DNA of 64,000 nucleotides from Chryseobacterium daecheongense (GTDB taxonomy: Bacteria > Bacteroidota > Bacteroidia > Flavobacteriales > Weeksellaceae): positions 1,860,001 through 1,924,000 of the forward strand of contig CP115858.1 in NCBI GenBank assembly GCA_027920525.1. The letters run 5' to 3'. A program made the translations under genes and the position numbers. The notes below the pieces were generated by a model, which saw only the letters and a program-made list of their open reading frames with translations, was not told the DNA's origin and did not search any database. Each line of letters opens with the position of its first letter. The first letter of the stretch is position 1. This document shows, piece by piece, positions 2 through 3,210 of this stretch.

Positions 2-337
2 AAATATGGAGACGGAGGTGTTGATGTTTCCCCTATTGCAGACCTTTATAAAACAGAAGTTTATACACTTGCAAGAGCCTTGAACCTTGTTAAAAATATC
101 CAGGAAGCCATTCCTACAGATGGACTTTGGGATGTAGAAAGAACTGACGAGCAACAAATTGGTGCCACCTATCCGGAACTTGAAAAGATCCAGAAGGAAT
201 ATGGTTCTAAAACTGCAGAAGATTATGAGGGACGTGATCGCGAGGTATTCTTAATATTTGACAGAATGCATAAAGCAGCCCAGCATAAAATGAATCCTAT
301 TCCTGTTTGTGATATTCCTGAAGAATGGAGATCATAA
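2..337 (+). CDS. nadE: NAD+ synthase, C-terminal part (partial at window edge)
   Basis: The reading frame is open from base 2 and ends at TAA 335-337, so only the last ~111 residues are present; the start lies outside the window. The fragment begins KYGDGGVDVSPIADLYKTEV, the conserved C-terminal segment of NAD+ synthase (GDG...D..PI.DLYKT.V), and continues with a helical tail containing PTDGLW and TDEQ, typical of ammonia-dependent NadE. The enzyme makes NAD+ from deamido-NAD+ and ATP in the cytosol. The next gene on the same strand starts 75 bases downstream with no clear terminator between. Confidence is high for the family; glutamine- versus ammonia-dependence cannot be decided from the fragment. 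Confidence 0.9.
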   Translation, partial: KYGDGGVDVSPIADLYKTEVYTLARALNLVKNIQEAIPTDGLWDVERTDEQQIGATYPELEKIQKEYGSKTAEDYEGRDREVFLIFDRMHKAAQHKMNPIPVCDIPEEWRS

Positions 338-412: not shown

Positions 413-895
413 ATGAATAGTAAAATGAGACCCGTATTTTTTGCCTGCATCGGCCTTCTGTTTGGAATGTTCGTGATGTATATTTTCAATAAGTTTTCTG
501 GTACAGAAAAAGATATTCAGAATCCAAAAGCTGAATACAACACAACTGCCGGTACAGCAAATCAACAATCTATCGATCAGCTTACCGCAGAAAAAACGGT
601 AATGATTTATGTAAAGGAACATCATCAGTTACCTGATTATTACATTACAAAAAATGAAGCCAGAAAGCTTGGCTGGAATCCTTCGAAGGGAAATCTTTGC
701 GATGTTCTCCCCGGACGTGCCATAGGAGGAGACCGCTTCGGAAACAGAGAAAGAAGTCTTCCGCAAGGGAATCAATACTATGAAGCTGATGTAAATTACA
801 GTTGTGGAAGTAGAAATGCCGACCGCATTATTTTCACAAAAGATGGGGATGTATATCTTACCAAAAATCATTATAAAAGTTTTGAAAAACAGTAG
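413..895 (+). CDS. Barnase-family extracytoplasmic ribonuclease
   Basis: This is a 160-aa protein with an N-terminal hydrophobic segment (residues ~8-25) that looks like a signal peptide or anchor, followed by a barnase-like guanyl-specific RNase domain (~55-160). The Bacillus barnase core is recognisable: LPDYYITKNEA, LGW..SKGNL, GGD.F.NRE..LP, EADVNY, SRNADRI and a final NHY. The catalytic set is present by position: K80, R112, E124 (general base), R134/R138 and H153 (general acid). C96 and C131 are extra cysteines that could form a disulfide outside the cytoplasm. The gene heads a three-gene unit whose last member is a barstar homologue, so it is probably a true toxic RNase with dedicated immunity. 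It could serve nutrient scavenging or competition; the export route is inferred only from the hydrophobic N-terminus. Confidence 0.88.
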   Translation: MNSKMRPVFFACIGLLFGMFVMYIFNKFSGTEKDIQNPKAEYNTTAGTANQQSIDQLTAEKTVMIYVKEHHQLPDYYITKNEARKLGWNPSKGNLCDVLPGRAIGGDRFGNRERSLPQGNQYYEADVNYSCGSRNADRIIFTKDGDVYLTKNHYKSFEKQ

Positions 896-1502
896 CTGCT
901 TAATCAGTATTCTGATGCTGATGCTTATTCTATTTTCCTGTTCAGATAAATCGCATAAGCTGACAATGGAAAATAAAGGATTGATAGTATTGGTTCAGCC
1001 ATTTAATGATTTAAAACCTGAAAGTGTAAAATTCGTAAGCAATGAGATCAGGAAAATATATCCGGATATAAAAATTCTGAATGCTATAGATTTACCGAAA
1101 GAGGCTTATTATCCGGAGAGAAAACGCTACAAGGCTGATTCTGTTATCAGATTTTTAAATAACAGAACCGACAGAGGTTATGTCACAATCGGCTTAACAT
1201 CAAAAGATATAAGCACCACTAAGGGTAAAATAAAAGACTTTGGTATAATGGGACTCGGTTATAGACCCGGAAAAGCATGCGTAGCATCAAATTTCAGATT
1301 AAATAAAGCAAAAGCTGATGAACAGCTTTTTAAAATTGCCATTCATGAACTTGGTCACACACAGGGATTGGAGCATTGCCCTGAAAAAACATGTTTTATG
1401 AGGAGCGCAGAAGGTAAAAATCCCACAGATGAAGAGGTGGATTTTTGCAAAAAATGCAAAGCCTTTTTAATAAATAAAAATTGGAAATTCAATTCAATAT
1501 GA
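849..1502 (+). CDS. Archaemetzincin-like zinc metalloprotease (peptidase M54), probable lipoprotein
   Basis: The protein carries the archaemetzincin signature: HELGHTQGLEHC at 1344-1379 (HExxHxxGxxHC, zinc histidines and catalytic Glu), a following CFM, and CKKC about 20 residues later. The family is assigned as a metzincin peptidase; its physiological substrates are poorly known. The N-terminus has a long hydrophobic run ending LILFSC, a good lipobox, so the mature protein would be a lipid-anchored periplasmic or surface protein, unlike the usually cytosolic archaemetzincins. The start is uncertain: in-frame ATGs at 804, 843 and 849 and a TTG at 882 all fall inside the end of the RNase gene; 849 or 882 give the most sensible signal peptide. 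The stop overlaps the barstar start by 4 bases (ATGA at 1499-1502). Placement between barnase and barstar is unusual. Confidence 0.8.
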   Translation: MYILPKIIIKVLKNSSCLISILMLMLILFSCSDKSHKLTMENKGLIVLVQPFNDLKPESVKFVSNEIRKIYPDIKILNAIDLPKEAYYPERKRYKADSVIRFLNNRTDRGYVTIGLTSKDISTTKGKIKDFGIMGLGYRPGKACVASNFRLNKAKADEQLFKIAIHELGHTQGLEHCPEKTCFMRSAEGKNPTDEEVDFCKKCKAFLINKNWKFNSI

Positions 1503-1807
1503 AAACAGTATATATAGATTTTACAGATATAGGAGATTATGAAGATTTCTATAGCCAGTTGAAAGAGAAAATCAGTCTTCCGGAACATTTTGGGGACAAT
1601 CTTGATGCCCTTTATGATGTTATTACGGGTGACCTGGAAATGCCTCTGCATCTTGAGTTTGTTAATTTAACGGTAGATCAGCTGGAATTATTTGAGGACC
1701 TGCTCACCACCCTGGAGGATGCAGAAGAAGAGCTTGAGGGTTTTACTTTCAGCTATTACCTGGAGCAGTATGAAGATGATGACGAAGAAGCTTCCGAAGA
1801 AGACTAA
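1499..1807 (+). CDS. Barstar-family RNase inhibitor
   Basis: The 102-aa product matches barstar: an N-terminal beta strand, then LPEHFGDNLDALYDVITG and a downstream PLHLEF strand. The NLDALYD segment carries the two acidic residues equivalent to barstar D35 and D39, which plug the barnase active site. A very acidic tail (DDDEEASEED) extends beyond the normal ~90-aa length. The start at 1499 is preferred over an upstream in-frame ATG at 1481 because it begins exactly at the barstar fold and makes an ATGA overlap with the archaemetzincin stop, implying translational coupling. It lacks a signal peptide, so it would protect the cytoplasm against the RNase encoded two genes upstream. Confidence 0.9.
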   Translation: MKTVYIDFTDIGDYEDFYSQLKEKISLPEHFGDNLDALYDVITGDLEMPLHLEFVNLTVDQLELFEDLLTTLEDAEEELEGFTFSYYLEQYEDDDEEASEED

Positions 1808-1830
1808 ACTTAAATCCCATCAAAAAAATA

Positions 1831-1860
1831 AAACTCGCAGATGTATCTGCGAGTTTTTTT
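1831..1860 (+). terminator. Intrinsic terminator after barstar
   Basis: A perfect 10-bp stem (AACTCGCAGA / TCTGCGAGTT) with a TGTA loop is followed by a run of seven T. It closes the barnase-archaemetzincin-barstar operon and may also act on the convergent gene that ends at 1894. Confidence 0.9.
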
Positions 1861-1893: not shown

Positions 1894-3210
1894 CTACTGT
1901 TTAATGAATTTTAGACTTTGTAAAATTTCCCCCTTCACAAAAATCTGCAGTATGTAATTCCCTGTCGACAATGAGGAAACATTAATCTGATTTCCTGCAG
2001 AATCTGAGGTCATTACTTTCTGACCGACCATATTATAAATTTCAGCTTTTTCTATTTTTTCAATTCCTTTCACGTAGAGGATATCTTTTACCGGATTGGG
2101 ATAGACAGATATTCCCTGACCTTTTTTGATTGCTTCGTGGGTAGATAAGAATTCAGAAAGGTCCAGATAGAATGCTACAATCTGATTGGAAGAATTGGTC
2201 CCAACACCCGCTATTTTTTTCCCATCATGGGAAATAGCCAACGGCAGGGACATCGTTATTCCCTGAGTATTGATCCCTAGGCTTGCCGCATAATCATTTA
2301 GATTGATTCTCCCCCCGGCAGCAGTCCATATAAAGCCTTCTCCAGACATCGGAGGTGCTGCAAAAGGCCTGAAATAACCTATTACCGTTCCGCCATCAGC
2401 AGAAATTCCGGTTGCACCGCCTCTGAAGAAGGCTGAGGAATTAGGATGTGTAATGTAAGTAAGTCCTGAAGTACTGTTCCATACATAAGGATTGGGCATA
2501 CCTGCCCCTATTATTGTGTTTCCGTCGGCAGAAACGGCTCCTGCTTCGCCAACATTATTTCCGTTACTGTCTGTAATATAGCTTTCTGTTCCATTCACCC
2601 ATTTAGCACCACTTCTGGTTCCGTTGTCTTCATCCTGCCAGCCAACCACAACCGTCCCATCAGCATTTACGGCATTAGCCCTCGAACTTCTTCCCGAAAC
2701 CATGCTTCCCAGGTCTACCATCCCGTTTTGTGCAGTCCATTTTACCGCATGAGCATTGGCAGCAGTTAACCATCCTAATCCTACAATGATACTTCCGTCA
2801 TACGACAATCCCCAGGTAGAACTTACAGAACCGTCCCATCCTGTAGGAACAAGTCCTCCCAGGGAAGTCCATGTTGAATTAGCGATATCATAAACTGATA
2901 TTTCATTAAATCCCGTACCCGTATTGGTCATTGTAGAGGCAATTTTTGTTCCGTCATTAGAAATTACAGCTCTCCCTGCACCGGGATAGCCATTAGAGGT
3001 TGCTCCGATCTGAGACAACCCGTTAACGGCATCCCATTTAAAAATCTGACCACCACTACTCTGCATGCTTACAACCCCATTATCAGATACTGCACCTGGT
3101 GAGTAATTGGCTGTCGCCATCACCGTCACCTGAGCATTCATGACCGAAAACAGGTTGAATAAAAAGTAAGCGTATACTGTTTTTGTTAAAATCTTGTAAA
3201 AGTTTTCCAT
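1894..3210 (-). CDS. Secreted HAF-repeat-like protein with T9SS C-terminal sorting domain
   Basis: This is a 438-aa exported protein. An N-terminal signal peptide ends near VMNAQ (~residue 27). The body is built of repeated segments of the type W....G...LG....... A.A.S.DG..VVG, characteristic of HAF-type/beta-propeller-like repeats (for example NAVNADGTVVVGW and GISADGGTVIGYF). The last ~75 residues are a type A T9SS C-terminal domain (ISVYPNPVKDILYVKG ... YNMVGQKV ... LSTGNYILQIF.KG ... KFIKQ), which directs secretion through the type IX system and usually cell-surface attachment. The biological role is not known. It is convergent with the barstar operon and transcribed alone. Confidence 0.82.
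   Translation of the reverse strand: MENFYKILTKTVYAYFLFNLFSVMNAQVTVMATANYSPGAVSDNGVVSMQSSGGQIFKWDAVNGLSQIGATSNGYPGAGRAVISNDGTKIASTMTNTGTGFNEISVYDIANSTWTSLGGLVPTGWDGSVSSTWGLSYDGSIIVGLGWLTAANAHAVKWTAQNGMVDLGSMVSGRSSRANAVNADGTVVVGWQDEDNGTRSGAKWVNGTESYITDSNGNNVGEAGAVSADGNTIIGAGMPNPYVWNSTSGLTYITHPNSSAFFRGGATGISADGGTVIGYFRPFAAPPMSGEGFIWTAAGGRINLNDYAASLGINTQGITMSLPLAISHDGKKIAGVGTNSSNQIVAFYLDLSEFLSTHEAIKKGQGISVYPNPVKDILYVKGIEKIEKAEIYNMVGQKVMTSDSAGNQINVSSLSTGNYILQIFVKGEILQSLKFIKQ

Follow-up and report, generated by a model that had tools for sequence, protein, structure and literature searches.

The window analysed here, a stretch of 64,000 nucleotides from Chryseobacterium daecheongense, contains near its first letter three genes that lie on the same strand, overlap one another and follow nadE (Table 1). 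The first encodes a predicted barnase-type RNase, the second an archaemetzincin (M54) lipoprotein and the third a barstar homologue; the gap between the barnase and barstar genes is termed the slot below. As read from the sequence, the barnase and M54 genes overlap by 14 bp and the M54 and barstar genes by 4 bp (ATGA), with the barstar ATG overlapping the M54 stop. These overlaps and a hairpin with a T-run after barstar, a probable terminator, agree with an earlier note on this DNA, in which the three genes were described as overlapping or abutting and as sharing one terminator. The hairpin appeared in the scan on the minus strand only, because four of the T's belong to its stem on the plus strand. 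The convergent gene on the other side of it (1894-3210, minus strand) ends in a C-terminal tail of the type IX secretion kind (PF18962) and does not adjoin the cluster in all relatives.

Table 1. Features of the barnase-M54-barstar locus in coordinates of the window.
Feature	Position	Strand	Basis or remark
nadE 3' end (NAD+ synthase)	2..337	+	Upstream neighbour, extends beyond window edge; PF02540 3e-17, TIGR00552
Predicted barnase-type RNase, 160 aa	413..895	+	Hydrophobic N-terminal anchor, then stalk, then barnase domain; PF00545 1.3e-16
Barnase codons 5-29, predicted hydrophobic helix, putative signal anchor	425..499	+	Low-confidence model, N-terminal comparison
M54 archaemetzincin lipoprotein, 206 aa, likely TTG start	882..1502	+	PF07998 5.9e-9; solved archaemetzincins 1.2e-15
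Lipobox LFSC of M54 protein	930..941	+	Sequence
M54 zinc-binding and Cys4 motif, residues 155-192, HELGHTQGLEHC...CxM...CKKC	1344..1457	+	Key positions invariant in 54/54
Barstar (putative barnase inhibitor), 102 aa	1499..1807	+	PF01337 4e-20; solved barstar 1.8e-9
Hairpin with T-run, probable terminator	~1830..1860	listed minus only	Common to barstar side and convergent gene 1894-3210

By its domain match and catalytic residues, the product of the first gene is a member of the barnase family and a predicted RNase. Its best match in the PDB was barnase (2.3e-33, residues 63-159) and K80, R112, E124, R134, R138 and H153 were all present, in agreement with the complete barnase-like RNase that the earlier note had described on the strength of these residues. 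The six catalytic residues were invariant in all 120 loci of a chosen set, for which 122 fetched stretches were examined and the two without barstar dropped; since loci with M54 are over-represented in this set outside the genus, proportions given below were taken from sampled genome sets. Two cysteines, C96 and C131, were likewise invariant (120/120) and aligned in the structure match with cysteines of PDB chain 1bne_A, which we take to be an engineered disulphide mutant of barnase (43-80 disulphide). If so, the invariant pair would be a natural version of the designed bond. The alignment and the model suggest that C96 and C131 probably form a disulphide in the oxidising periplasm.

Where the barnase N-terminus was fully readable, basic residues were followed by about 20 hydrophobic residues and then by a stalk that varied between loci and was rich in Ser, Gly, Asn and charged residues; no evident cleavage site was noted after the hydrophobic stretch in these loci. 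The predicted structure, of low confidence (mean pLDDT 64) and for that reason used only for the outline of helix, stalk and domain, showed a helix at residues 5-29, pLDDT below 50 at 29-50 and a folded part beyond. We infer from these features that the barnase is signal-anchored in the inner membrane with its RNase domain facing the periplasm, and the long, variable stalk is probably unstructured. Median dN/dS for barnase was 0.10 (93 pairs). Two barnase matches and a single barstar match were noted in each of five genomes (G103, G118, G130, G140 (g42) and G239).

The mechanical ORF of M54 begins at GTG 804; homologues and the signal peptide both point to TTG 882, which is therefore the likely start. 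Of 54 rows with a recognisable lipobox, 38 probably start at a TTG followed by Lys or Arg, 7 at ATG and 9 otherwise. Translation from TTG 882 opens with MKNSSCLISILMLMLILFSC, which forms a short lipoprotein signal. Of the 54 uninterrupted slot M54s, 51 have a lipobox-like motif; in the window it reads LFSC and follows a short hydrophobic signal. A pair of neighbouring acidic residues between +2 and +6, as in the LES consensus given in PMC5080379 for surface-exported Bacteroidetes lipoproteins, occurred in only one of the 54 rows, and slot M54s thus carry no known surface-export signal of that type. The earlier note had placed both RNase and protease outside the cytoplasm; the N-terminal export-type signals were found on both proteins, and the location itself is what these signals suggest.

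The motif of the M54 protein is laid out as HELGHTQGLEHC-x4-CxM-x15-CKKC, and its zinc-binding and four cysteine positions were invariant in all 54 uninterrupted slot M54s. Measured against the archaemetzincin signature HEXXHXXGXXHCX4CXMX17CXXC given in PMC3427221, all zinc and cysteine positions agreed (54/54) and the last spacer was 15 instead of 17 residues. The NCBIfam model for archaemetzincin (NF033823) matched at 1.2e-33, but the score of 116.5 bits was below the curated cut-off of 145 bits. Archaemetzincins were the top Foldseek fold matches (best 6.0e-15) of an AlphaFold2 model of the protein (pLDDT 85.5). On the basis of its Pfam match (PF07998) and predicted metzincin fold, the product of 882-1502 is a member of M54, and the archaemetzincin-like lipoprotein that had been reported between the RNase and its inhibitor is accordingly confirmed, as are its CKKC and lipobox. 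Uninterrupted copies had a median dN/dS of 0.10 (62 pairs) and an invariant catalytic motif, and are thus under purifying selection; in-frame stops were found in 3 of 57 slot M54s.

The product of the third gene is, by domain match and paired Asp motif, a barstar homologue, as had been claimed, and a putative inhibitor of the neighbouring barnase. Its NLDALYD motif, with the paired Asp, aligned with the barstar structure; the match to solved barstar extended over the first 58 residues, and that to the barstar-like protein YhcO was equally good (~2e-9). Median dN/dS was 0.07 (109 pairs). By the criterion applied, the ATGA overlap of M54 with barstar occurred in 36 of the 44 genus loci that have full M54 and in none of 13 loci of other genera, and suggests translational coupling of the two genes where it occurs.

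Recurrence of the barnase-M54-barstar order in relatives, proposed in the earlier note as the check on the association, was evident from a neighbourhood search, and the contrary finding that the genes are rarely adjacent was not obtained. Thus, among 59 whole genomes (36 of the genus of the window, its own included, and 23 others), barnase and barstar were present in all 36 genus genomes and in none of the others. The pair was adjacent in 36/36, with nadE 24-295 bp upstream of barnase in 36/36, while a close M54 was found in 21/36, each time between barnase and barstar. The protease is therefore optional, being absent from the slot in 15 of the 36 genus genomes. Relocation of the gene in the genomes that lack it was considered and rejected, as no close copy was found elsewhere at E<=0.001; what matched weakly (E ~1e-7 to 1e-5) were other, longer frames, and frames of this type also occurred in genomes with M54. 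Weak M54- or metzincin-like matches (E ~1e-8 to 1e-4) were seen in frames of ~310-350 aa in many Chryseobacterium genomes, with and without slot M54 (e.g., G008:C4:40416-40976, L030); these frames probably represent another metalloprotease family.

In a family sample of 197 genomes, 160 gave a match to barnase, 164 to barstar and 48 to M54 (E<=1e-10). M54 lay in the slot in 43 of these 48, comprising all 30 genus matches (two of them, in G009 and G100, broken copies) and 13 of the 18 others, so that slot M54 was present in only 13 of 147 family genomes other than Chryseobacterium; the five M54s outside the slot were in G065, G079, G112, G127 and G144. No barnase match was obtained in 37 of the 197 genomes, three of which have M54 (G065, G112 and G144), always of the standalone type, and slot-type M54 without the pair was not seen in this sample. 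Such dependence on the pair is expected if M54 serves the pair, and close linkage alone could give the same result. In an order sample of 395 genomes, M54 (E<=1e-8) was found outside the family in 16; together with the five family copies outside the slot these gave 21 standalone M54s, and neither barnase nor barstar was present within the fetched stretch at any of the 21. The order nadE, barnase, M54, barstar was also seen in 31/31 named Chryseobacterium loci, the closest of which was 98% identical in M54, although these loci were fetched by M54 and are uninformative on frequency. In another genus (g28), M54 lay between the pair in 4 of 14 fetched loci and nadE was outside the fetched stretch in all 14. 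The association of M54 with the pair is thus an inherited arrangement in several genera and not accidental; accidental neighbourhood is ruled out by these counts and by the tree described below. The pair itself can be split, as seen in genus g21, where barnase and barstar were more than 1 Mb apart in G109 and G133, neither with an M54 match at E<=1e-10, and on different contigs in G122.

In a tree that combined the uninterrupted slot M54s (n=54) with the standalone ones (n=21), the two forms were separated by a single change of state (support 100/98); trees were built under LG+G4 with no mixture model, and this one was flagged for long branches. On a concatenated tree of the 120 chosen loci, in which 50 of 117 inner branches were open, the presence of M54 changed at least 36 times. 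Of 32 genus loci that lack a full M54, 8 (G100, which has a truncated copy, G235, G236, G020, G033, G002, G176 and G019) retain remnants of the gene, detected at E<=8e-6 with a profile of 36 intact M54 3' ends, and these remnants point to loss as the direction of change. The search covered 56 gaps of 11-999 bp, 31 from these 32 genus loci and 25 from the 31 others; no remnant was found in the 25 gaps of other genera, and none of the upstream controls (n=63) gave a match below E 8. We infer that M54 was probably captured once between the pair, early in the family, inherited with it and lost many times. Repeated independent capture is not favoured, given the position of all slot M54s on one side of a branch and the remnants of loss, while re-gain by recombination through the flanks may have contributed.

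M54 distances were correlated with those of barnase (Mantel r 0.81), nadE (0.77) and barstar (0.68) over 50 loci, and in each case none of 2000 permutations gave a value as high. With nadE held constant, the partial r of M54 over 49 loci was 0.505 for the barnase domain and 0.535 for the stalk; over the 42 loci of the genus, the corresponding values were 0.70 and 0.63. Co-divergence of this kind can come from linkage alone.

The gap between the pair also contained other inserts. A small GIY-YIG gene was noted between barnase and barstar or between barnase and M54 in 23 of the 120 loci, among them L094:4525-4922, L107:4517-4941 and L117:4522-4914. All 23 belong to the genus, and 12 also have full M54. 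The 102 aa product of the gene matched PF01541 at 9.8e-14 in the one copy tested, and in the three loci examined the gene was flanked by inverted repeats of 34-42 nt (GTCATTGCGAGGAGC... type). Of 8 genomes searched, 6 had 1-5 copies each of the palindromic repeat, which also lies singly at other places in several genomes; the genome of the window had none. Gene and repeats together look like a mobile, repeat-associated nuclease element, similar in layout to the REP-associated transposase arrangement but with a GIY-YIG nuclease in place of the transposase; judged by titles, no description of it was found in open-licence literature. Inserts of 5-7 kb separated barnase from barstar in L278 (G124), L279 (G157, known by length alone) and L280 (G194). 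By eye, frames in L278 and L280 resembled an efflux operon with outer-membrane-factor, membrane-fusion and ABC-2 permease genes, and L278 also had a transposase-like frame. In L281 (G190), the gap of ~580 bp consisted of AT-rich near-tandem repeats (GCAAGAATAT... units).

The reading that we favour, with a probability of roughly 0.68, is that of a barnase-barstar pair of known sort with which a periplasmic protease is optionally associated; this protease would act on the RNase itself, on the material that the RNase acts on, or independently. According to this reading, barnase would be exported by its signal anchor and held in the inner membrane facing the periplasm, where it would fold under oxidising conditions and cut RNA. 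Barstar would act as a cytoplasmic guard, blocking RNase left in the cytoplasm, and M54, a dispensable protease, would be expressed together with them and share the compartment of the RNase. Since M54 is absent from many slots, it is not essential for production, release or restraint of the RNase; the pair persists at such loci with the active site of barnase intact. As to its substrate, barnase itself, whether for turnover or for trimming, is a somewhat unlikely candidate, and a protein bound to the same outside RNA that barnase cuts is a rather unlikely one. That M54 does an unrelated periplasmic job is quite possible, if short of an even chance.

A job of the latter kind, like that of the standalone relatives, with the slot providing expression beside a well-kept neighbour, can be put forward tentatively. 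It agrees with the occurrence of standalone lipoprotein M54s with neither barnase nor barstar nearby (21/21 loci), with frequent loss of M54 and with a gap that also accepts the GIY-YIG element (23/120 loci) and, in three g28 genomes, inserts with efflux-type genes. However, none of the 43 slot-type copies of the family sample was found outside the slot or without the pair, and the trio was kept away from nadE in 4 of 14 g28 loci. A fairly doubtful alternative is that, within the periplasm, the RNase and the protease jointly break down incoming RNA-protein or the debris of ribonucleoproteins, while barstar protects the cell. Two hydrolases with export-type signals and a cytoplasmic inhibitor in one apparent operon would suit such scavenging, but no conserved adjoining transporter or nutrient-regulated gene was found, as far as we looked.

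It is also fairly improbable that slot M54 serves specifically as the peptidase of the neighbouring membrane-anchored barnase, which it would trim, release or remove in the periplasm. Were this so, control of the RNase would have three layers, with the inhibitor inside, the protease outside and the RNase anchored between, and a bacterial archaemetzincin would have a genetically indicated physiological substrate. The narrower proposal that M54 cuts the barnase stalk and so releases or activates the RNase outside the cytoplasm appears distinctly unlikely. RNase and protease both seem to face the periplasm, the stalk is long, variable and probably unstructured, slot-type M54 was never seen without the pair, and M54 and barnase, both stalk and domain, co-diverged beyond nadE. 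Against this, barnase keeps an intact active site in loci without M54, its N-terminal length was equal in genus loci with and without M54 (means of 72.6 for 44 and 72.5 for 32 loci; p=0.67), no motif or consensus difference in the N-terminus was linked to M54 in these loci, and co-divergence within the genus was higher with the domain than with the stalk. Thus the suggestion in the earlier note that the protease might process or release the RNase gained no support, the RNase N-terminus being the same with and without M54.

The other suggestion made there, a competitive effector set in which RNase, protease and immunity protein would serve against other bacteria, is very improbable: the order of toxin, then immunity gene, and the use of barnase-like domains as polymorphic-toxin warheads (PMC3482391) would fit it, but the 160 aa protein has anchor, stalk and barnase domain with no delivery domain or repeats, the genes form a small, single, conserved locus beside nadE, median barnase dN/dS is 0.10, and simple barnase-barstar pairs are described in PMC3482391 as being without notable polymorphism. 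Assignment to polymorphic toxin systems was likewise rejected for a protein lacking delivery and repeat domains, and assignment to anti-phage defence was rejected as PADLOC models matched none of the three proteins (0 families for barnase, M54 and barstar).

Knowledge of the biological importance of archaemetzincins is very limited according to PMC3427221, in which some of those studied are reported as inactive in assays, while another was active and inhibited bacterial growth in vitro (PMC4681839). The nesting of an M54 gene between an RNase and its inhibitor is a clue to the possible role of a poorly understood protease family, and relatives with and without M54, together with remnants of loss, supply a concrete substrate hypothesis and ready comparison pairs. 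In addition, the textbook barnase-barstar pair is widespread in one family in a form whose RNase is apparently anchored in the membrane (barnase match in 160/197 genomes). The parts are known; no description of the nested arrangement was found in open-licence literature, where neither the nesting nor its inheritance and losses seem to have been described.

Simple barnase-barstar pairs, presented in PMC3482391 as an incipient form with toxin-immunity order, have the barnase gene followed by the barstar gene as here, but in part of this family a protease gene is nested between the two and the RNase is apparently membrane-anchored. Bacillus barnase and barstar (PDB 1bne, 1b27 and others) have the same catalytic residues in the barnase domain and the same NLDAL-D motif in barstar; unlike Bacillus barnase, the present protein has an N-terminal anchor and stalk before the domain, and its invariant cysteine pair lies where 1bne_A also has Cys. 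The lipoprotein M54s that stand alone in other genera and families of the order (L126, L193-L197 and L256-L270) likewise have an N-terminal signal and are up to ~50% identical to the slot form, from which they differ in the absence of barnase and barstar from the fetched stretch (21/21) and in their position outside the slot group in the tree. Archaemetzincins of the AmzA type (MEROPS M54; 3zvs, 4axq and 2x7m) share with slot M54 the fold and the HExxHxxGxxHCx4CxM...CxxC signature, whereas slot M54 is a predicted exported lipoprotein that has 15 rather than 17 residues before the last CxxC and scores below the NF033823 cut-off.
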